Part shown: positions 1 through 49,422 of the stretch, one piece after another
Position numbering within the stretch: position 1 is the first letter of the stretch
How the letters are laid out: every line of letters begins with the position of its first letter
Origin: a bacterium
Lineage (GTDB): Bacteria; UBP6; UBA1177
DNA: 64,000 bases
Reading direction: 5' to 3'
Assembly (NCBI GenBank): GCA_017963125.1
Contig: JAGCUA010000053.1
Location: 1-64,000, forward strand
The notes under the pieces: generated by a model
What the model saw: only the letters and a program-made list of their open reading frames with translations
Told to the model about the DNA's origin: nothing
Database searches by the model: none
Made by a program: the position numbers and the translations under genes

Positions 1-666
1 GATTTTATAACGCAACTGCATGATTCTGCTTATACTGCCGCGGTAAAAGCTGTAAACCGGTTTGCTACAATCCGGAATTATATGATTGGTTTTTACATCG
101 TTGAATACGAGCAGCACGGGAGCGACAGAGCAAAATATGGTGACAAATTGTTGCGGCGGCTCGCTGAACGAGTAAACAAGCGCGGTATAAATGAAACCTT
201 GTTGAAAGTTTCCAGAGCTTTTTATTTGGCTTATCCTCAGGTAAAGGATTATCTGCTTGGGAAAACCACTGAATTAATTGGTAATTTCGAAAAAAGTGCG
301 ACAGCGTCGCACCAATTCAAAATTCCTGCTGAAAAACTGATTTCCCAGCTTTCCTTTTCTCATATCCGCGAGATCTTGACAGTTGACAATCCTCTAGCCC
401 GATTTTTCTATGAATTAAAAGACGACGAATTCAAACATTCCGACCTTAGCCAGCTGAATGCCTATGTGTCTTATTTCAGAGAAAACGAAATGCGAGATGG
501 GGACAATCCGCCTGTCGGGATTCTGCTTTGCACAAAAAAAGGAAAGAAAATGGTCGATTATGCGCTTGCTGGCCTGGATAACAAGCTGTTCGTATCCTCA
601 TATATGCTTTCTCTGCCTGATGAAAAAGTGCTGGAAGAATTTATTATTAAAGAGATAGAGGGATAA
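1..666 (+). CDS. DUF1016 (YhcG-type) protein, cut by window start and internally deleted
   Basis: The reading frame is open from base 1, so the true start lies outside the window. The N-terminal part matches the DUF1016 helical domain. The end (EFKHSDLSQLNAYVSYFREN, DGDNPPVGILLCT, LDNKLFVSSY) matches the last third of the PDDEXK nuclease domain of the same family. Between them PLARFFYE runs directly into LKDDEFKH. Compared with the complete relative at 41723-42766, about 125 residues are missing, including the YYIDLVFY strand with a catalytic Asp and most of the LIDLK strand. The join is in frame, so a protein could still be made, but nuclease activity is very unlikely. DUF1016 proteins usually accompany restriction or other defence genes. 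Confidence 0.8.
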   Translation, partial: DFITQLHDSAYTAAVKAVNRFATIRNYMIGFYIVEYEQHGSDRAKYGDKLLRRLAERVNKRGINETLLKVSRAFYLAYPQVKDYLLGKTTELIGNFEKSATASHQFKIPAEKLISQLSFSHIREILTVDNPLARFFYELKDDEFKHSDLSQLNAYVSYFRENEMRDGDNPPVGILLCTKKGKKMVDYALAGLDNKLFVSSYMLSLPDEKVLEEFIIKEIEG

Positions 667-39396: not shown

Positions 39397-40569
39397 TTAT
39401 TTTATTTCAGTTTCCCAAGGATGCTGTCTCATATACCTGATAACATTCGTAAGGACACGTTTTCTTGCCGCGATCGTCTGATTTTTCTTGTATTCTTCGT
39501 GGTTCGCGCGTCCTGAGCGGCTTTCGATGAAGCTCTCCTCGTCTAAGATCTGCACTTCGAACGGGAAGAAAAAGCGATAGATCGGTTTCGCCGGATTTAT
39601 CGGGTCTTCCATCGTGATCAGAAGCCGGCTCGTGAGCTGGATCGAAGAGTACGAAGTCGAAGAATAAAGGTTCGTCTCCTCGATATTTCTCTTTGTGATC
39701 TCCTCTTTTTCCTCCGGCGGGATTTCGAGATATTTTTCAAGGAAATCGGCAACGTCTTCCTGAGACCACGACGAAAGATCGTACGATTTCAGCTCTTCGA
39801 CGCCTTCGATGAAACGCGGAATGTTGACGACGTTGTTTTTTGTCCGGCTCGGCTTGATGTTGGCGAACGAAATAACGTGATTTGTCGCGAAATACCTGAG
39901 CACAAGAATGATGTCGAGTTTTGTATAGGTCACGATCCGCACTCCTACGCGGTCGAAAATGTCGGCGGTGACATTCTCCTTTTTGTGGAGAAGTTTGAGA
40001 ATCAGGCTGTCACGTGATTTGTCGTTTTTTATTTCGAAAAGTTTTAGTCTGATCGCGTCGTCGCCCGTTCCCAGGAAGTAACCGCCCGCAGAATTGCCGT
40101 TCAGGTGTGCACTGAACCTTTTGTAAATCTGGTTTCTGATGCCCGGCATAAAACTTTTTGCGAGGTCATTTTCGACGTGCGTGATCGTATGCGCCACTCT
40201 CAGGATCGCACAGGCCCAGGCCTGCTCAAGCGTTTTCTCCTTTTCCGAAGCCATGATGAGCAGGCTCACGATATCGTCGTTGCAGAGAATGTCCGGCGGA
40301 ATCACTAAAGTCTCCCCTTTTCCTTCGGGATCTTCGAGAAGATAGCTCTGAATAAAGGTTTTCGCCTCGCTCAGAATCGCAGAAACAGTCTCCGCAATTT
40401 TAGGATCAGTTATGTCGTAACCGTAATTTTTGATGAAAACGAGTCCCGATTCCCTGTCGTGAACGTTGAGCCTTTCGATGTCGATGAAACTTTTCTGAGA
40501 AAAAATCGCATCAAAAAGCTCGAAAGGGAATTTCAGAAAATTTTTTTCGAGTTTGTTTTTAAGTTCCAT
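39397..40569 (-). CDS. RelA/SpoT-fold-like protein (TIGR04552-type)
   Basis: I take ATG 40569 with GGAGG ten bases upstream. The protein (390 aa) resembles a family I recall from Myxococcota (possibly TIGR04552). Segments match (p)ppGpp synthetase motifs: FDRVGVRIVTYTKLD (for D-x-x-G-x-R-I), YSSIQLTSRLLI (for GYRSLHL) and FPFEVQILDEESFIE with HEEYKKNQ (for EVQIRT...H..YK). A nucleotidyltransferase fold is therefore likely; whether it makes (p)ppGpp is uncertain. A TATAAT at 40602-40607 on this strand may be its -10 element. Confidence 0.6.
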   Translation of the reverse strand: MELKNKLEKNFLKFPFELFDAIFSQKSFIDIERLNVHDRESGLVFIKNYGYDITDPKIAETVSAILSEAKTFIQSYLLEDPEGKGETLVIPPDILCNDDIVSLLIMASEKEKTLEQAWACAILRVAHTITHVENDLAKSFMPGIRNQIYKRFSAHLNGNSAGGYFLGTGDDAIRLKLFEIKNDKSRDSLILKLLHKKENVTADIFDRVGVRIVTYTKLDIILVLRYFATNHVISFANIKPSRTKNNVVNIPRFIEGVEELKSYDLSSWSQEDVADFLEKYLEIPPEEKEEITKRNIEETNLYSSTSYSSIQLTSRLLITMEDPINPAKPIYRFFFPFEVQILDEESFIESRSGRANHEEYKKNQTIAARKRVLTNVIRYMRQHPWETEIK

Positions 40570-40736
40570 GGTTTGCAAACCTCCAAAGGTCGAAACGCGC
40601 TATTATACTAAATTTTTCGGAAATTGCGAGAGAAAGGGAGAATCAAAATTTCAGGAATGATTTTTTTAAGAAAATTCATCCGGGTGTTTGATTTTATTTT
40701 CGTTGTAAGACATTATCGATAGCGGGAGGTGAAAGT

Positions 40737-41180
40737 ATGAACAAATATATGGAAATCGCTCTTCAGGAAGCGAAAAACGGCATAAATGCAGGTCACGGCG
40801 GTCCTTTCGGATGCGTTGTTGTCAAAAACGGCGAAATCGTCGGACGCGGTCACAATGAAGTGATAAGGCGCAACGACCCGACATGTCACGGCGAAGTTAT
40901 GGCTATACGCGACGCATGCAGAAATCTGAACTCGTTCGACCTTTCAGGATGCGAACTTTATACAACGGCAGAACCCTGCCCCATGTGTTTCGGCGCGATA
41001 CTCTGGGCCAACATAAGAAAAGTTTACTACGGCTGCACCATAGCTGACACCGACAAACTTGGTTTCCGTGACGAAATTTTCTGCACTTCATCTTTCGACA
41101 TAAAAACGGAGATGGACAGAAAGGAATGCCTCGGTCTTTTTGAAGAATACAAAGCGATCAAGGACAGAAAAAGTTACTGA
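40737..41180 (+). CDS. Nucleoside/guanine deaminase
   Basis: A cytidine-deaminase-fold enzyme: CHGEVMAIRDA (H51, E53) and AEPCPMCFGAI (C81, C84) bind zinc. The KVYYGCTIADTDKLGFRD stretch and length (147 aa) fit guanine deaminase of the GuaD type rather than TadA. It turns guanine into xanthine. GGGAGG precedes the ATG. It stands alone. Confidence 0.8.
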   Translation: MNKYMEIALQEAKNGINAGHGGPFGCVVVKNGEIVGRGHNEVIRRNDPTCHGEVMAIRDACRNLNSFDLSGCELYTTAEPCPMCFGAILWANIRKVYYGCTIADTDKLGFRDEIFCTSSFDIKTEMDRKECLGLFEEYKAIKDRKSY

Positions 41181-41239
41181 CAGCAGAATTTCAGCTGGGT
41201 TTTTAGTACAAAAAATAATTCAAAAAATTTACCCAATCC

Positions 41240-41272
41240 TCATTATCTGTCATTTTGTTCCTTGCGTTTCTT
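41240..41272. repeat. 33-bp direct repeat, copy 1
   Basis: TCATTATCTGTCATTTTG followed by TTCCTTGCGTTTCTT. It matches 42853-42885 at 31 of 33 positions, same orientation. It forms the 3' end of the small gene next to it. Confidence 0.7.
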
Positions 41273-41545
41273 TATCATTTCGTCAAGCTCCATCTTGAAT
41301 CTCATCCATGTTTCTCTATCACACTCATCACCCCATGAATTTCCGGATTTAGCGAAGTCATCAAAATCTTGATCCATACGCTCAAGTGTTATAAGCGATA
41401 AATCCTGCATGATTGATTTCACATAATCGCAAAAAGTGCCGACAATATAAGTTCTTCGCCCCATGGCGTATCTCATGGCACAACTCAACATTAATTCTAA
41501 ATCTTTGTTAAGTTCTATAGTTTTGTTAACAACTTCTGTTTTCAT
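41243..41545 (-). CDS. Small protein of unknown function
   Basis: ATG 41545 has GGAG six bases before it; product 100 aa: MKTEVVNKTIELNKDLELML, AMRYAMGRRTYIV and DRETWMRFKMELDEMIKKR. Acidic and helical with no known domain. It resembles small phage or plasmid proteins, which is an impression only. Divergent from a DUF1016 gene in the AT-rich island. Confidence 0.5.
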   Translation of the reverse strand: MKTEVVNKTIELNKDLELMLSCAMRYAMGRRTYIVGTFCDYVKSIMQDLSLITLERMDQDFDDFAKSGNSWGDECDRETWMRFKMELDEMIKKRKEQNDR

Positions 41546-41722
41546 TGTGATCTCCAAAGATAAAATTCGCAAAAACAACAAAAGCATTATAAAATATCTA
41601 TATTGAAAAGTCAAATTATTTTCTAAGCACAACAAAATAAATTTACAAAAAATCTCCTAAATATTTTACAAAAATTGAAATTTGTGAATAAAATATGCAG
41701 TGGTTTTTGTTTGGGGTATGCA

Positions 41723-42766
41723 ATGAACAACAAAATAACAAAGCAAAATGAAAATGAGAACCTCATTAAATCTGAAACAGTCTTTGTAAATGATATAAAG
41801 AAGATCATAAATGAAGGCAGAAAGTCAGCATATAGCGCAGTTTCCGCCGTTATGATTCAAACATATTGGAACATTGGCAGACGAATCATAGAGCAGGAGC
41901 AGAGAGGAAAAACACGCGCTGCGTACGGTGCGCATTTGATAGACTTGCTTTCGGAAGAACTCTCGAAAGAATACGGCACAGGATTTTCCGCACGATATCT
42001 GAGACAATTCAGAAAATTCTATGTGATTTTTCCGGAATCAGAGATTTGGAAAACGCGATTTCCAAATTTGACATGGACACACTACCTTGCGGTTTTGCGT
42101 GTCTCGGATGAAACTGCGTGCCGTTGGTATATTGAAGCAGCTTCTAAAGAAATGTGGAGTGTCAGGACTTTAAACAGAAATATAAGCACCCAATATTTTG
42201 AACGCCATATGTCTAATCCGGCTGACGCCATAAAAGGTAAAAAGAAAATTTCAGCCCCCAAAGTTCTGAAAAATCCTTTCGTTGCAGAATTTTTGGGGTT
42301 CAAAACCGACGATAGTTTTTCTGAATCTGATTTGGAAAGTGCCATAATAACACATTTGAAAGATTTTCTGCTCGAAATGGGCAGAGGATTTGCATTCGTG
42401 GCTCGGCAGCAGCATATTCATACTGATGCGGAAGATTATTATATTGATCTCGTGTTTTATAACATAATTTTAAAATGTTATGTCCTTATTGACTTGAAGG
42501 CAGGTAAAATCAGGCATCAGGATGTCGGTCAAATGGATATGTATGTTCGTATGTACGATGAATTAAAACGGACTGATGGTGATAATCCGACAATCGGTGT
42601 TCTGCTTTGTTCAGAAACGGACGAGGCTATTGCAAAATACTCGGTTCTTCGGGAGAGTGACCGTCTTTTTGCCACCAAACTTATGACTTGTATGCCTACC
42701 GAAGAGCAGCTAAAGGCAGAAATAGAACATCAGAAAGAAATTTTCAGACTACAGCATGAAGAATAA
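41723..42766 (+). CDS. PDDEXK nuclease, DUF1016/YhcG family (complete)
   Basis: ATG at 41723 follows a GGGG site. The N-terminal DUF1016 helical domain (about 20-180) includes IQTYWNIGRRIIEQEQ and LSKEYGTGFSARYLRQFRKF. The C-terminal PDDEXK nuclease has FSESDLESAIITHL, FAFVARQQ, EDYYIDLVFYN and CYVLIDLKAG, with all core acidic and Lys residues present. Such proteins often lie with restriction or other defence genes; its partner could be the DUF262 genes downstream. It is the intact counterpart of the gutted gene at 1-666. Confidence 0.85.
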   Translation: MNNKITKQNENENLIKSETVFVNDIKKIINEGRKSAYSAVSAVMIQTYWNIGRRIIEQEQRGKTRAAYGAHLIDLLSEELSKEYGTGFSARYLRQFRKFYVIFPESEIWKTRFPNLTWTHYLAVLRVSDETACRWYIEAASKEMWSVRTLNRNISTQYFERHMSNPADAIKGKKKISAPKVLKNPFVAEFLGFKTDDSFSESDLESAIITHLKDFLLEMGRGFAFVARQQHIHTDAEDYYIDLVFYNIILKCYVLIDLKAGKIRHQDVGQMDMYVRMYDELKRTDGDNPTIGVLLCSETDEAIAKYSVLRESDRLFATKLMTCMPTEEQLKAEIEHQKEIFRLQHEE

Positions 42767-43056
42767 AGGCGAGTCGTTGAAAAAAAATGCCCAAAGTGGC
42801 AAAAATTTTCAGCGGAACTTGATTTTCAGCAATAATTCCACTGCACCGACTTTCATCATCTGTTATTTTGTTCCTTGCGTTTCTTGCGCTGAATAACTCA
42901 ATTTCCGAAACAGTGTCTCGGAGATTCATGTAAGTTGGCCTCGCTATCTTTGTAAAAATATTCAGCATGGATTTTTTCAAAAAAATCAAAGATTTTTGTT
43001 GATTATTTGAGCTGTATCGGTCTTAATTGCAAGACTTTAAACGGAAGGAGGTGCTA
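42767..43056. other. Intergenic stretch with a 33-bp repeat
   Basis: No gene is supported. It contains the second 33-bp direct repeat (42853-42885) and AAAAATCAAAGATTTTT-like hairpin sequence near 42980, plus the AAGGAGG site of the DUF262 gene. Confidence 0.4.
42853..42885. repeat. 33-bp direct repeat, copy 2
   Basis: TCATCATCTGTTATTTTG followed by TTCCTTGCGTTTCTT; two mismatches to copy 1. The pair brackets the small gene and the DUF1016 gene. Confidence 0.7.
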
Positions 43057-44565
43057 TTGGGCAACAATCTGATTTTAGGGATTACAAAAATAGGAGATTT
43101 ACTCGTAAACAATAAAATTTCTGAAACTAATGTAGATAAAGAAGGAAGATCTGTTTCATTGAAAATTCCGCCGTATCAGCGGCCTTACAAGTGGACTGCC
43201 AAAAACGCCAATCAGCTTTTGGATGATATTATTGAGGCGATAAACGAAAACAAGGAAGTCTATCGTGTCGGAACGCTGATTCTGCATAACAAAAACAATG
43301 AAAATAAAGATTACGATATTGTTGACGGTCAGCAGAGAGTCATAACCTTTGCGTTGCTGCTGCAAGCTTTGAATCAAGTTTTGGAAAAGAAAAACAGTGA
43401 AAACAAGCAGGAGGATATTAGCTTTTTAAGCGAAGAATTAGCAGATAACGACTATAATCTTCACAATGTTTTAAATAACTTCAGAGTATTCGAGCGGCGG
43501 ATCAACAATATCGAGAAAAAAGATGAACTGAAAAAGTTTATAGAAGGACAATGCGAACTTGTTGTAGTAATTACAAGTGATTTATCGGAAGCATTCCAGT
43601 TTTTCGATTCGCAGAACGCCCGCGGAAAGGCACTTTATCCGCACGATCTGCTGAAAGCCTATCACCTTCGCGAAATGCAGGATCTAAGCGCGGAGAAAAC
43701 CGAAAAAATCGTCAAAACATGGGAAGATTGTGACCAAAAGGAGCTTTCAAACCTTTTTAAGGAATATCTTTACCGCTTGAAAGAGTGGATCAAAGGTAAT
43801 CGTTCCGATGAGCTTACCGAAAAAAATATCGATATGTTCAAAGGAATCACGGCAAAAGACAAACATCCTTATGCACAGTTTTACAAAGGAGCGTTTGCTT
43901 ATGCCGACAATCTCAACAACTCTTCTGTGCCGTTTGTTACTGGTGGAAAGCTGCTAAAACCTTTCCAGATTGATGCTCCGGTTATTGCCGGGAAACCCTT
44001 TTTCGAATATGCAAAACACTATTTTGATATTCTTGCGGACATCAAGGATAACGACAAATATTCCGGTTACTTTATAAACGACAACGAAATAGTAAAAACA
44101 CTGGATAAATATTACAGTCACGGTACTGGCAACAGGATCACGCGCTTGCTTTTCGATACTGCGATTCTCCTTTATGTGGACAGGTTCTGTCCGCTTGTTC
44201 CAGATAAAACAGATCTGAATTTTTTTGAGGAATTTGTGAAATTTGCATTTATCTGGGCTTATTCAATGCGGGCTCAGTATACAAACGTCGGCTGGCTTGT
44301 AGCGCAGAATTTCATAACAGAAACATCAAAGAAAGAAGGCTTGAGAAACAGCTTTAACATCTACAGGATGATTGCTGATTCAGATTCACCCAATGTCTTG
44401 CTTTCAAAACTTTCGGACAATCTTGTTCCGCTTGAAAGTATAAAAGCTGAAAAGAAGGTAATCAACAAAGATAAAGATGAAGAAGATGAAGACAAAATTT
44501 TTGTAAATTATCTGCACTTCTTCAAAGCCTATAAATTTTGGGAGATAAAAGATGAGCCAAAATAA
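43057..44565 (+). CDS. DUF262 protein without a nuclease domain
   Basis: I place the start at TTG 43057, six bases after AAGGAGG. The DUF262 domain has IPPYQRPYKW (37-46), VGTLIL, DIVDGQQR (DGQQR at 90-94) and FFDSQNARGKALYPHDLLKA. The remaining C-terminal part is helical, with no DUF1524 HNH motif. In GmrSD-type systems DUF262 carries the nucleotide-dependent part and DUF1524 the nuclease; this gene seems to be the helper. Its end overlaps the next gene by 14 bases. Confidence 0.85.
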   Translation: MGNNLILGITKIGDLLVNNKISETNVDKEGRSVSLKIPPYQRPYKWTAKNANQLLDDIIEAINENKEVYRVGTLILHNKNNENKDYDIVDGQQRVITFALLLQALNQVLEKKNSENKQEDISFLSEELADNDYNLHNVLNNFRVFERRINNIEKKDELKKFIEGQCELVVVITSDLSEAFQFFDSQNARGKALYPHDLLKAYHLREMQDLSAEKTEKIVKTWEDCDQKELSNLFKEYLYRLKEWIKGNRSDELTEKNIDMFKGITAKDKHPYAQFYKGAFAYADNLNNSSVPFVTGGKLLKPFQIDAPVIAGKPFFEYAKHYFDILADIKDNDKYSGYFINDNEIVKTLDKYYSHGTGNRITRLLFDTAILLYVDRFCPLVPDKTDLNFFEEFVKFAFIWAYSMRAQYTNVGWLVAQNFITETSKKEGLRNSFNIYRMIADSDSPNVLLSKLSDNLVPLESIKAEKKVINKDKDEEDEDKIFVNYLHFFKAYKFWEIKDEPK

Positions 44566-46405
44566 TAATGATCTGCCGTTGCAGGAACTTTCAATAAATA
44601 AGTTATTCTGTGAAGAGTCACGCACATACGAAATTCCGATTTATCAGCGGAATTATGCATGGGGAAAAGACGAAATAGAGACTCTTGTGCAGGATGTTTA
44701 TGATTCTTTTACAAAACAAAAAGAGAACTATTACATAGGCACTTTGGTAACATTCCGTAAAGATAACAATCTCTTTGAAGTAATCGACGGACAACAGCGG
44801 CTTACGACAATTTATTTGATTTTGAAGGCTTTAAACGAAAAGCCAAAAAGCAAATTAACCTACAAAGCCCGCCCAAAATCAGATAAGACGTTGAATGCAT
44901 TGCCCGATTTCAAAGATATTGAAGAAAAAGACCAAGGAATTGTGAATGGTTTTAATTGGGCAAAAAATGCTTTAAAGGATAAAACAGATTTAAAGGATTA
45001 TTTTCTGAACAAAGTTCACATTATTCATTATCAGGTTCCGCATGACATTGACTTGAACCATTATTTTGAGGTTATGAACTCACGCGGTGAGCAGCTCGAA
45101 AAACACGAAATTGTAAAAGCAAGGCTGATGGGAAAACTTGATAATGGTAATGATGATGCTCGAATGATTTTCAATAAAATTTGGGAAGCATGCAGCCAGA
45201 TGTCAACCTATGTGCAAAGGAATTTGTCAGAAGTTTTCAATGATAAGCCAGATAAATTTGAACTAAGCGATTTTGACTCGTTGAAAATAGAAAACAATGA
45301 ACAACGAGGCTCAAAATCAATCGAAAAAATTTTGTCCGAAGAGAGTTTAAAAACATTAAAAAAAGAAGAAAAAAGCGATACTTTCCAACCGATAATCGAC
45401 TTTCCGAATTTTCTGCTGATCGTCTTGAAAATTACAAGAATGCTGGATGAAAACGATCAAGAAACCAAAGTTACACTTGACGACAAGGAACTTCTGAGTG
45501 AGTTTGATAAAGCGAAATTTGATGCTGACAAAGTAAAAACTTTTGCATTCAACCTCTTAAAAGCTCGTTTTTTTCTTGATAACTACATCGTTCATCATTC
45601 AAACGAAGATGATATTTATGGGAACAACCCATGGAAACTTCAAGTTTTGACAAAAAAAGATAAAGAAACAACGCCTGAAAACCTTTGTTCCGATAACAAA
45701 GAATTGCAGGAAAAATTGGTTCACCTTCTTTCGATGTTTGAAGTTTCTTACACTGCGAAACAATATAAAAACTATCTTTTTGATTGTCTCTATTGGTTAA
45801 TGAAAGATGATTTAAAAAATGTTTCCAGTTATGCTGATTTTGTGGAAAATCTTGCTAGTAAATATTTCAAAACTTCTGCGAAAGATTTTGAAAATCCTGC
45901 AAGAATTCCGCTGTTTGTTTTTAATTACCTTGATTATAAAATCTGGAAACTGTATGCGGAACAGTTGAAGGGCCAAGAATCTGAAAAGGGAGATTCTAAA
46001 AGAAGACCGTTCTTTGAGCAACTTGGTTGTTCTGATTTCGGACTTGATATTTTTCAGAAATTCTATTTTTCAAGAACGCGCCGCAGCCTTGAACACTATT
46101 TTCCGCAGGCTAATGCAAATAAAGAAGGCGCACCCAATGATAAACAGATAAATTGCTTCGGTAATTTTGCAATGATCGGTGCAGAAGCAAACAGTTCCGG
46201 TTCAAATTGGAGCCCTAAAGCGAAACTTGATCACTATCTTGACCCTTCAGGAAAGATAAATCAGATCAGCGTAGCTTCATTAAAATTTATGATAATGATG
46301 CAAATCTGCAAAGATCATAAAAAATGGGAGAGGAAAGAAATTCAAGAACACCAAAGCAAAATGCTCGCAATTTTGGGGTTGACAGAAGAGAAGGTGGGTT
46401 GTTGA
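44552..46405 (+). CDS. DUF262-DUF1524 nuclease protein
   Basis: A DUF262 domain with IPIYQRNYAWGKDEIETLV and VIDGQQRLTTIY (DGQQR at 79-83), then FEVMNSRGEQLEKHEIVKAR. The C-terminal DUF1524 (HNH-type) has SLEHYFPQ (513-519) and INCFGNFAMIGAEANSSGSN, so its active site looks intact. Such proteins are GmrSD-type endonucleases that cut modified phage DNA. Pairing with a DUF262-only gene is common in defence loci. AT-rich like the previous gene; the two overlap and must be cotranscribed. Confidence 0.88.
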   Translation: MSQNNNDLPLQELSINKLFCEESRTYEIPIYQRNYAWGKDEIETLVQDVYDSFTKQKENYYIGTLVTFRKDNNLFEVIDGQQRLTTIYLILKALNEKPKSKLTYKARPKSDKTLNALPDFKDIEEKDQGIVNGFNWAKNALKDKTDLKDYFLNKVHIIHYQVPHDIDLNHYFEVMNSRGEQLEKHEIVKARLMGKLDNGNDDARMIFNKIWEACSQMSTYVQRNLSEVFNDKPDKFELSDFDSLKIENNEQRGSKSIEKILSEESLKTLKKEEKSDTFQPIIDFPNFLLIVLKITRMLDENDQETKVTLDDKELLSEFDKAKFDADKVKTFAFNLLKARFFLDNYIVHHSNEDDIYGNNPWKLQVLTKKDKETTPENLCSDNKELQEKLVHLLSMFEVSYTAKQYKNYLFDCLYWLMKDDLKNVSSYADFVENLASKYFKTSAKDFENPARIPLFVFNYLDYKIWKLYAEQLKGQESEKGDSKRRPFFEQLGCSDFGLDIFQKFYFSRTRRSLEHYFPQANANKEGAPNDKQINCFGNFAMIGAEANSSGSNWSPKAKLDHYLDPSGKINQISVASLKFMIMMQICKDHKKWERKEIQEHQSKMLAILGLTEEKVGC

Positions 46406-46407
46406 CG

Positions 46408-46524
46408 ATGGAGAAAAAATTGATACCACAGTCAATAAACTTCCTAAAGACTTCCCAAAGAAATTCCCAAAGACGGCACCCAAGATGGCACTCAAGACGG
46501 CACTCAAATGAGGATTCGAAATAA
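46408..46524 (+). pseudogene. Tail-like relic with 12-bp repeats
   Basis: A frame without its own start reads DDGEKIDTTVNKLP then KDFP, KKFP, KTAP, KMAL, KTAL and stops. Four-residue period repeats after a TTVN block are, from memory, typical of C-terminal tails of AlbA_2/Fic-type proteins. It is therefore perhaps the remnant of such a gene; the 12-bp DNA repeats are at 46446-46505. Confidence 0.35.
46446..46505. repeat. Five degenerate 12-bp tandem units
   Basis: AAAGACTTCCCA, AAGAAATTCCCA, AAGACGGCACCC, AAGATGGCACTC, AAGACGGCACTC in direct succession. Confidence 0.7.
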
Positions 46525-47244
46525 ATGCAGCACCAGCTTGAAATAAACGGCAGGATCCTGGAATACACTCTTGAACGGAAGAAGGTGAAAAACCTGAATC
46601 TGAGGATAAGGCGGGACGGAAGCGTCTATGTTTCGGCAAACAAGTCGGTTCCGCTGGATTACATCGAGAATTTTCTAAGGTCAAAGTCGGACTTTATTTT
46701 CAAAGCAGTCGAGCATTATTCTGAAGTCTCTGCCATGAAGGAATCCCCGAAAAAATATGTGGACGGAGAATCGTTCCGCGTTCTCGGGCATGATCTGAGG
46801 CTGAAAGTGATCCGCGGGGCGAGGAACGAAGTCAAAAACGACGGTGTTTTCATAACCTTGCGGGTGAAAGATCCTTTTGACACCGATATGAAAGAACGTG
46901 TTTTCCGCAAGTGGCTGACATCTGTTTGCAAAGAAACTGTGACAAAATTATGCGAAGCGGTTTATCCGAAATTCAAGAAATACGGCATAGATTTTCCTGA
47001 AATAAAGTTCAGAAACATGGTTTCCCGCTGGGGAAGCTGCACGCCCGGCAGAAAAACCCTCACTTTCAGTTATGCACTCGCCACAGTTCCGGTTTCGTGC
47101 ATCGAATACGTCGTCATGCACGAATTCACCCATTTTCTGCATCTCAACCATTCGCCCGATTTTTACCGTCAGCTTGCGGTTTTCATGCCTGACTGGCGTG
47201 AGAGAAAGAAACTTCTTGAAAAAAGTGTGTGCCGGAAAGTGTGA
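46525..47244 (+). CDS. YgjP-type (M48-like) metallopeptidase
   Basis: The 239-aa protein has VMHEFTHFLHLNHS (HEFTH at 199-203, NHS at 208-210) and MVSRWGSC, the typical zinc-peptidase site and preceding motif of the YgjP/DUF45 family. Such genes often sit beside type I restriction or other defence genes, although their substrate is unknown. Composition is more GC-rich than the DUF262 genes, so it could be a core neighbour. Convergent with the GH57 gene. Confidence 0.85.
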   Translation: MQHQLEINGRILEYTLERKKVKNLNLRIRRDGSVYVSANKSVPLDYIENFLRSKSDFIFKAVEHYSEVSAMKESPKKYVDGESFRVLGHDLRLKVIRGARNEVKNDGVFITLRVKDPFDTDMKERVFRKWLTSVCKETVTKLCEAVYPKFKKYGIDFPEIKFRNMVSRWGSCTPGRKTLTFSYALATVPVSCIEYVVMHEFTHFLHLNHSPDFYRQLAVFMPDWRERKKLLEKSVCRKV

Positions 47245-47247
47245 CTT

Positions 47248-49422
47248 CTACACGTCCCAGAGTTTGAAAAGGGCTGCTTCGTCTGGGACAGTCACTTCAA
47301 TCGAACCGTTTCCGGGGATCCTTTCGAGTTCTATTCCCTCGTTTGAAAGGATTTTGAAGTAGATCCGCACTTTTTCGCCCGGTTTCAGGCCGATTTTCTT
47401 TGCATAAAGAGTGAACTCCATAACTTCGTCGAAAGCTGCTTCGCCGGCCCCCACGATGTCGGAAACTCTTCCTGATTCGTTGCTGCTGTGGATCAGGAAA
47501 GGTGTTTTTTCGATCCTCACCATCGGAAGAGCGAAATCTATGCTTTTGTGATCCATCACAAAGCCTTTGATAAAGTATTTTTTGTGCTCGTAAAAGTGCA
47601 TCGGGTTTGTCAGTTCGATCCTGAAAAAGAGCATATCGCGGTTGAAGCCGTAAAGGATCTTGTCAACGAGTTTGATCGAATTATACATCGCGCCGCCGGC
47701 TTTCTGCGCGTTTTCGAAGCGTCCGGCACCCGCCCATTCGTAATAACCGTTGCTGTGACCAGAAATAACCGGATTTATCTCGCCGGTCGGTTCGACGAGC
47801 AGACTGTTGCTCAGTTCTGACGAAATCGGAATGTCGAGGAATGTCGGATAGTTCATGCCGAGCAGATTGTAGACGCGGCGCAGATGACGCCTGAAAAGAC
47901 GGTCGAAAAGCCAGTCGTTTTCGGTCGAGAACTGCGGACCGTACCACCAGAACCAGTCGCTTCCTTCAGCTCTGTAGAGACAGCGCATGATTTCAGAATG
48001 GATCTGCGGCCCGACAATGTGATTCTGGCTGTATTTCGCGTAAAAATCGCGGACCCGCTTGAGGTAACCCCACGCGGCATTGTCTTCGTCGTTTCCGATC
48101 CAGATTTCGTAATTCCCGTTTATCCATGAACCCGACCACAAGTCGTTTATGACCGGATATTTGTCGGTTCCGCGACTGATTATGTCGGAATAAACCGTAG
48201 TTTTTATCACGCTATCGCTGCTAAGACGCATGAAAAGTTCTTTCAAAAAGTGCTCGCCGTTATCTGGATAGGATTCCCACGCGTTTTCGCCGTCCATTAT
48301 GACCGAAACGACTGGTTCCGAGCCGTTTGACGGAAAACTTGCCGCCGCGTTCCTGACATAGTTCACAAAAATGTCAGCAGCCTGCTCAGGTTTCATCTGC
48401 GAAAAAGAAAATCCCAGAAGATCCGACAGATATTTGTCTCTGAAAAATATTGCGACATCCTGATTTTTCTCACCTTTCAAAAGATACGGTGTGTAGAGCA
48501 CCTGAGATTTGTCGCTGCGGCCGAGGGATTTCAGAAGAATAGTTTCATCAGTTGTCATCCACTTTACCGAAGAATCGGCAGCGGCATCGATTATTTCGGG
48601 CGCAACCGAGCCTTCAGCAGGCCACATTCCGTTCAGAGTACGTCCCCATACCTCTTCACTGTAACGCTTTCCCTCTTCCAAATGCCATTTTGCGTCTTCG
48701 GGATAGGAAAATTTTGCCGGAAGCGGGGAACTCATGCACCTTTTTGCGATATCGGTATCGTAAACAAGCGGAAAAATCGGGTGATAGAACGGCGTGAACG
48801 AAATTTCGATGACACCTTCATCGGCAAGACGTCTGTAAAGCGGGATTATGCTGCGCAGGACCTTGCGCTGGATTTCGAGAAGATCCTCCTTGTCCCTTTT
48901 TGTAAAGCCGCAGTCCTTGCGCTCGAGTTCTGCGAGACGCTCAAACTCCGCTTTTGCAGTAAAACCGAACCATTTTAAGTTGAAAAGGACCTGCAGATCG
49001 AGGATCTCGTCATCGGAAAAAAGACGTGCCATCTCGTTCCAGCCAAGTTTCTTTTCGTAGCGCAGACGTTTGTTCAAAAGCTCGTTGTAACGCGGCGAAG
49101 TCCTTACCAGACGGTCCCAGTTTATCATAAAAAAATTCTTTATGACGAACGCTTTCTGCTCTTCCTTCATCTCTGACGGGTCAGCGATCGTGTGTTCGAG
49201 CCATGCGTCGGTCACATTGTTTTCGGCGTAGTCCTTAAGCTGCTCGATAAGCGACGGAACGACGTTCACGACACCTTTGACACCGTATTTTTTCATTGCA
49301 GAAGGAATATCGTAGTAGCCTTTCAGCGCGTGAAGCCGGACCCACGGCATGAGGTATGTGTTTCTGATGCAGTCTTTGTAGTAAGGCTGGTGCATGTGCC
49401 ACAAAAAAACGAGTTCAGTCAT
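47248..49422 (-). CDS. GH57 family glycoside hydrolase
   Basis: GH57 conserved regions are all seen: LWHMHQPYY (7-15), GMWPAEGSVAPE, WMTTDETIL and MDGENAWESYP (with the acid/base Asp). The family includes alpha-amylase, amylopullulanase and 4-alpha-glucanotransferase. The C-terminal 250 residues form a beta-rich domain (about residues 480-724). The gene follows glgC by 3 bases, so it probably degrades or remodels glycogen-type glucan. Intracellular, since no signal peptide is seen. Confidence 0.9.
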   Translation of the reverse strand: MTELVFLWHMHQPYYKDCIRNTYLMPWVRLHALKGYYDIPSAMKKYGVKGVVNVVPSLIEQLKDYAENNVTDAWLEHTIADPSEMKEEQKAFVIKNFFMINWDRLVRTSPRYNELLNKRLRYEKKLGWNEMARLFSDDEILDLQVLFNLKWFGFTAKAEFERLAELERKDCGFTKRDKEDLLEIQRKVLRSIIPLYRRLADEGVIEISFTPFYHPIFPLVYDTDIAKRCMSSPLPAKFSYPEDAKWHLEEGKRYSEEVWGRTLNGMWPAEGSVAPEIIDAAADSSVKWMTTDETILLKSLGRSDKSQVLYTPYLLKGEKNQDVAIFFRDKYLSDLLGFSFSQMKPEQAADIFVNYVRNAAASFPSNGSEPVVSVIMDGENAWESYPDNGEHFLKELFMRLSSDSVIKTTVYSDIISRGTDKYPVINDLWSGSWINGNYEIWIGNDEDNAAWGYLKRVRDFYAKYSQNHIVGPQIHSEIMRCLYRAEGSDWFWWYGPQFSTENDWLFDRLFRRHLRRVYNLLGMNYPTFLDIPISSELSNSLLVEPTGEINPVISGHSNGYYEWAGAGRFENAQKAGGAMYNSIKLVDKILYGFNRDMLFFRIELTNPMHFYEHKKYFIKGFVMDHKSIDFALPMVRIEKTPFLIHSSNESGRVSDIVGAGEAAFDEVMEFTLYAKKIGLKPGEKVRIYFKILSNEGIELERIPGNGSIEVTVPDEAALFKLWDV

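Follow-up and report, generated by a model that had tools for sequence, protein, structure and literature searches.

A probable TgvAB-type restriction gene pair in a genus-specific hotspot that changes its cargo and its position

The window analysed here, the whole 64,000-nucleotide stretch of contig JAGCUA010000053.1, holds an insert of several genes between two genes of the native chromosome. Its features are the following:

40570..47247, no strand: whole insert between a TIGR04562-family gene and a GH57 gene; these flank genes abut in 11 of 14 congeners
40737..41180, forward strand: cytidine/tRNA-adenosine-deaminase-like gene (Pfam PF00383, E 1e-29)
41240..41272, no strand: first copy of a 33-nt direct repeat, the 3' end of the small ORF (repeat comparison)
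41243..41548, reverse strand: conserved small ORF, the constant gene at the left of the block, PHROG 11947 (identity across congeners)
41549..41722, forward strand: leader ahead of the cargo (alignment with congeners)
41723..42766, forward strand: DUF1016 nuclease, DUF1016_N and YhcG_C PD-(D/E)XK (Pfam, E 5e-43 and 3e-52)
42853..42885, no strand: second copy (94%) of the 33-nt direct repeat (repeat comparison)
43057..44565, forward strand: TgvA-like gene, GmrSD_N (DUF262) and DUF7834, no DUF1524, 502 aa (Pfam, motifs)
44552..46405, forward strand: TgvB-like gene, GmrSD_N (DUF262), helical middle and GmrSD_C (DUF1524) His-Me finger, 617 aa (Pfam, motifs)
46470..46507, no strand: tandem array of three 12-nt units (AAGACGGCACTC-type) within the leader of YgjP, common to congener G004
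46525..47244, forward strand: YgjP-like (SprT-type) metallopeptidase, right constant gene of the block (Pfam PF01863, E 4e-53)

The initial annotation had described four genes at 41.7-47.2 kb as a defence-type island, and both the description as such and the domains claimed for each gene were confirmed by ORFs and Pfam; an NCBIfam search gave no match for any of the four proteins. That the island is AT-rich holds for 41695-46405, with 37.1% GC against a mean of about 45% for 4.7-kb stretches of the window, but not for the YgjP gene, which at 46% GC resembles the native flanks. The first 5 kb of the window has a GC content lower still than that of 41695-46405. Missing from the earlier description were the small reverse ORF (41243-41548) and the cytidine-deaminase-type gene (40737-41180), which are parts of the same insert in some relatives. 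A contaminated assembly is an unlikely source, because the other parts of the block agree with their counterparts in congeners at about 85-97% and the flanking genes are native to the genus.

The two DUF262 genes overlap, as had been noted, by 14 bp, shared between 43057-44565(+) and 44552-46405(+). The likely start of the first is a TTG at 43057, preceded by AAGGAGG. The QR, DGQQR and FxxxN motifs are all present in both proteins (in ORF numbering, Q51R52, D100-R104 and F193-N197 in the TgvA-like protein; Q32R33, D79-R83 and F172-N176 in the TgvB-like protein). The DUF1524 His-Me signature H...N...N occurs in the TgvB-like protein alone of the two (H515, N538, N547), so that the HNH motif is indeed absent from the first gene and intact in the second. 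The earlier interpretation of the pair as a DUF262 helper with a DUF262-HNH nuclease, distinct from classical GmrSD, is supported by our analysis. GmrSD, Eco94GmrSD and BrxU are modification-dependent enzymes of the same DUF262 and DUF1524 superfamily, but they consist of either a single chain or a GmrS (DUF262) and a GmrD (DUF1524) protein, whereas both chains in the window carry DUF262; this rules out classical GmrSD as a name. GrwAB, from V. cholerae WASA VSP-II, also combines two DUF262 proteins, one of them with DUF1524 (PMC12137116). In that system the gene for the DUF1524 protein comes first, and the partner protein has a long multi-domain C-terminus, whereas in the window the gene order is reversed and the 502-aa partner has DUF7834 only, without the extended C-terminus, and this name was also ruled out. 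PDB sequence and fold searches with the pair returned SspE, DndI-complex and other DUF262 proteins. The fold match to SspE, of SspABCD-SspE, is significant for both proteins, but SspE is a single protein tied to phosphorothioate modification; its architecture does not fit a two-protein pair, and no Ssp genes were seen beside the pair in the window.

The remaining claim, that no system known by name matches these genes, could not be sustained, since the pair is built like TgvAB and the DUF1016 gene corresponds to a PADLOC single-gene candidate. TgvAB (VC1767-VC1766 of the V. cholerae island VPI-2), described in 2024, likewise has a DUF262-only gene and, directly downstream of it, a DUF262-DUF1524 gene, with the same motifs and the same pattern of catalytic residues (PMC11411939). 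By architecture, gene order and residue pattern, and with V. cholerae TgvA and TgvB compared by description only, the window's pair looks like TgvAB. In V. cholerae both proteins are required, and protection is lost when the DGQQR motifs, H571 or N602 are mutated (PMC11411939). TgvAB targets phages with glucosylated or arabinosylated hydroxymethylcytosine, a range that may by analogy extend to the window's pair. The settings differ: the window's pair lies behind a DUF1016 gene in a YgjP-ended block, TgvAB inside hsdS-hsdR. TgvAB-homologous pairs are often embedded in other defence loci, and such nesting also occurs among the loci related to the window's pair.

Approximately 85,000 species genomes were scanned with the first DUF262 protein, and this returned 80 loci from many phyla, at 50-67% identity. 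In all 74 loci with enough sequence, the second gene directly follows the first, in the same order and on the same strand, the distance between them ranging from -143 to +14 bp. Plasmid-borne pairs are 33-40% identical to the window's pair, and two of them are placed behind type I RM HsdS genes, an arrangement also seen in VPI-2. The TgvAB-type pair thus behaves as a stable two-gene unit, with DUF1016 and YgjP as its exchangeable neighbours. A search of the source genome found no further GmrSD_N gene elsewhere. DUF7834 occurs in one of 61 genomes, the source genome itself, which is consistent with recent acquisition. A phage-borne origin of the pair was considered and rejected, as 2.9 million viral contigs yielded just 4 relatives.

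The TgvB-like protein lacks about 52 residues kept by its close relatives, in two in-frame gaps of about 43 and 9 aa, and does not have the full-length middle domain seen in those relatives. The missing segment is nearly invariant among 32 relatives, and with 617 aa this is the shortest full TgvB copy seen. Both observations would suit a damaged TgvB copy in a decaying pair that has lost its restriction activity. We regard such decay as unlikely: all frames of the pair are open, its NTPase and nuclease motifs are intact, and the structural model has fair to good confidence around the gap, though low confidence in the nuclease region. (In the TgvA-like model, good quality is limited to the DUF262 domain and the C-terminal part.) The segment is likewise missing from more distant pairs (L006, L007, L009). 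For this reason the segment is probably not a defining feature of TgvAB, and loss of restriction activity through the gap is rated as possible. The activity of the TgvB-like protein is nevertheless uncertain, because residues that its close relatives keep are missing.

The DUF1016 protein carries active-site residues D242 and D257-L-K259 in its YhcG_C PD-(D/E)XK core. PADLOC 2023, a check that the initial annotation had proposed, matched this gene to PDC-S02 (E 8e-131, almost the whole model covered); for the pair, its matches were confined to the generic Orf5/HEC-06/SspE models. PDC-S02/YhcG has the same DUF1016_N and YhcG_C core with its active-site residues, and PDC-S02 is a single-gene candidate with no partner defined. 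A PDB search with the DUF1016 protein gave no match. Another proposed check, conservation of the DUF1016-DUF262 adjacency, separated the genes: while the pair itself is constant, DUF1016 is its direct upstream neighbour in only 4 of the 66 related loci that extend far enough upstream (L053, L054, L085 and L078). This is largely the outcome that the initial annotation had named as refuting its reading. A C-terminal DUF1016 remnant lies upstream of the pair in a further locus, L011. L053, L054 and L085 have a common upstream sequence and represent one lineage (Prevotella); their DUF1016 proteins are 28-29% identical to the window's, that of L078 63%. Given these different DUF1016 types, the DUF1016-TgvAB association has probably arisen more than once, yet it is uncommon.

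Could DUF1016, TgvA and TgvB nonetheless work jointly as a single three-gene system, such as a modification sensor controlling two nucleases? The DUF1016 genes of those four loci, like the remnant, stand on the same strand directly upstream of TgvA, the gap is 79-83 bp where the TgvA start is clear, and no other DUF1016 was found across 1.3 Mb of related loci. We nevertheless find such a system quite improbable. Besides the rarity of the association and the unlike types of the neighbouring DUF1016 genes, V. cholerae TgvAB is active without DUF1016 (PMC11411939), and DUF1016 genes are scattered and multi-copy, with 10 matches in the source genome (one at window positions 1-666) and up to 15 in relatives and congeners. 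The other DUF1016 genes inspected in the source genome have no TgvAB beside them. The sister species G002 carries a DUF1016 protein with 97% amino acid identity in the same setting, without the DUF262 pair; window 40662-42926 is collinear with it at 92%, and the two sequences diverge at 42926. Since G002 has this setting without the pair, DUF1016 was probably in the block before TgvAB came in behind it. The 33-nt direct repeat (41240-41272 and 42853-42885) brackets the DUF1016 unit. At 42777-42885 the flank of the small reverse ORF is present a second time, in a form equal to the 3' flank of that ORF in G008.

The YgjP-like protein has a YgjP domain with an intact HExxH motif (HEFTH). Copies 88-96% identical occur in eight congeners; in seven of these the gene lies elsewhere, at two other sites. 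YgjP matches were obtained from 16 of 18 relatives. YgjP, earlier considered a possible member of the system, is a genus gene that belongs to the block and not to its cargo. In several congener loci it is preceded by RM or AlbA_2 genes, and on an unrelated plasmid (L093) an SprT-family gene comes after HsdM-HsdS-DUF1016-HsdR, as might be expected if YgjP were a working component of the restriction cargo. Its presence in nearly all relatives, and without RM or AlbA_2 cargo in G001, G004, G006, G009, G013 and G014, makes that role very improbable. As a separate observation, AlbA_2 + HATPase_c_4 + winged-helix genes stand directly before YgjP or HsdR-YgjP at L152:9239-10582, L163:739-2094 and L157:5198-6562, and a similar gene lies after TgvAB in L088 and before it in L010.

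The small reverse ORF is a single-copy gene found in five congeners, always within the YgjP-ended block: it has 84-88% amino acid identity in G002, G004, G007 and G008, is damaged in G003, and was not found in the other relatives searched. The deaminase gene rides with the block in G002 and G004, is damaged in G003, and is missing from the block in G007 and G008. By alignment, the leader at 41549-41722 is similar among congeners whether DUF1016, AlbA_2 or YgjP comes next, and the 12-nt tandem units upstream of YgjP (46470-46507) are also present in the G004 block, which has no cargo. Against this cargo-free block, the window's cargo extends from about 41695 in the leader to 46407, at the TgvB stop codon.

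The block is mobile and its cargo is exchanged. The insert is absent at the window's site in G002-G007 and G010-G014, where the flank genes are adjacent; junction sequences were viewed for nine of these 11 congeners, and blastn places the breakpoints of the insert at 40569 and 47245-47250. G008 has, at the same site as the window, the small ORF, an AlbA_2 gene and YgjP. In G009 and G001 the flank genes have other sequence between them or fall on separate contigs, and the stretches read there contain no defence genes. Across the genus the block occupies three different genome sites, and in the source genome both alternative sites are empty. At another site, G002 has deaminase, small ORF, DUF1016, type II RM, AlbA_2 and YgjP, in that order, and G010 has type I RM with an AlbA_2 gene upstream of YgjP. 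AlbA_2/HATPase_c_4 genes lie upstream of YgjP in G003, G007 and G008, while G001 and G004 have no restriction-type cargo there. No recombinase accounting for the movement of the block was found. It is tempting to speculate, although we consider it rather unlikely, that the small reverse ORF with the leader and YgjP make up a relocatable exchange platform, without a recombinase of its own, which moves between several chromosomal sites in the genus and swaps whole restriction modules (type I, type II, type IV-like, DUF1016, AlbA_2). On this reading, the short repeats and the constant leader may guide cargo exchange by homologous recombination.

A single four-gene system is rejected, because DUF1016 and YgjP are separable from the pair. 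The findings probably reflect a two-protein, modification-dependent type IV restriction system of the TgvAB type, within the GmrSD superfamily, that was added to a genus-specific hotspot changing both its cargo and its position. By analogy with V. cholerae TgvAB, the DUF262 domains of TgvA and TgvB would bind NTPs, hydrolyse them and recognise hypermodified bases in DNA entering the cell; the His-Me finger of TgvB would then cut this DNA, and both proteins would be needed. DUF1016 would act as a separate, independent PD-(D/E)XK nuclease module, probably in the block ahead of TgvAB, and YgjP and the small reverse ORF would be constant block ends rather than effectors. The TgvAB type itself is already described, and the DUF1016-TgvAB arrangement recurs outside the genus; the pair places a system of this type in a poorly known lineage. 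Less ordinary are the relocating hotspot and, more rarely encountered, the recurrence of DUF1016-TgvAB. With 14 congeners compared, the swapping of restriction modules at a block that also changes place can be followed unusually clearly.

Among the related loci, TgvAB-type pairs are nested in other defence operons, including toxin-antitoxin operons: the pair lies between AbiEi and AbiEii genes in L068, L069 and L073, and between HsdS and HsdR in L042, L049 and L056. On an Aliarcobacter plasmid (L004:4624-13293) it is flanked on one side by a gene for a PDDEXK_1 nuclease and on the other by one for a UvrD helicase, and all of these genes overlap by about 10 bp in an operon-like arrangement.
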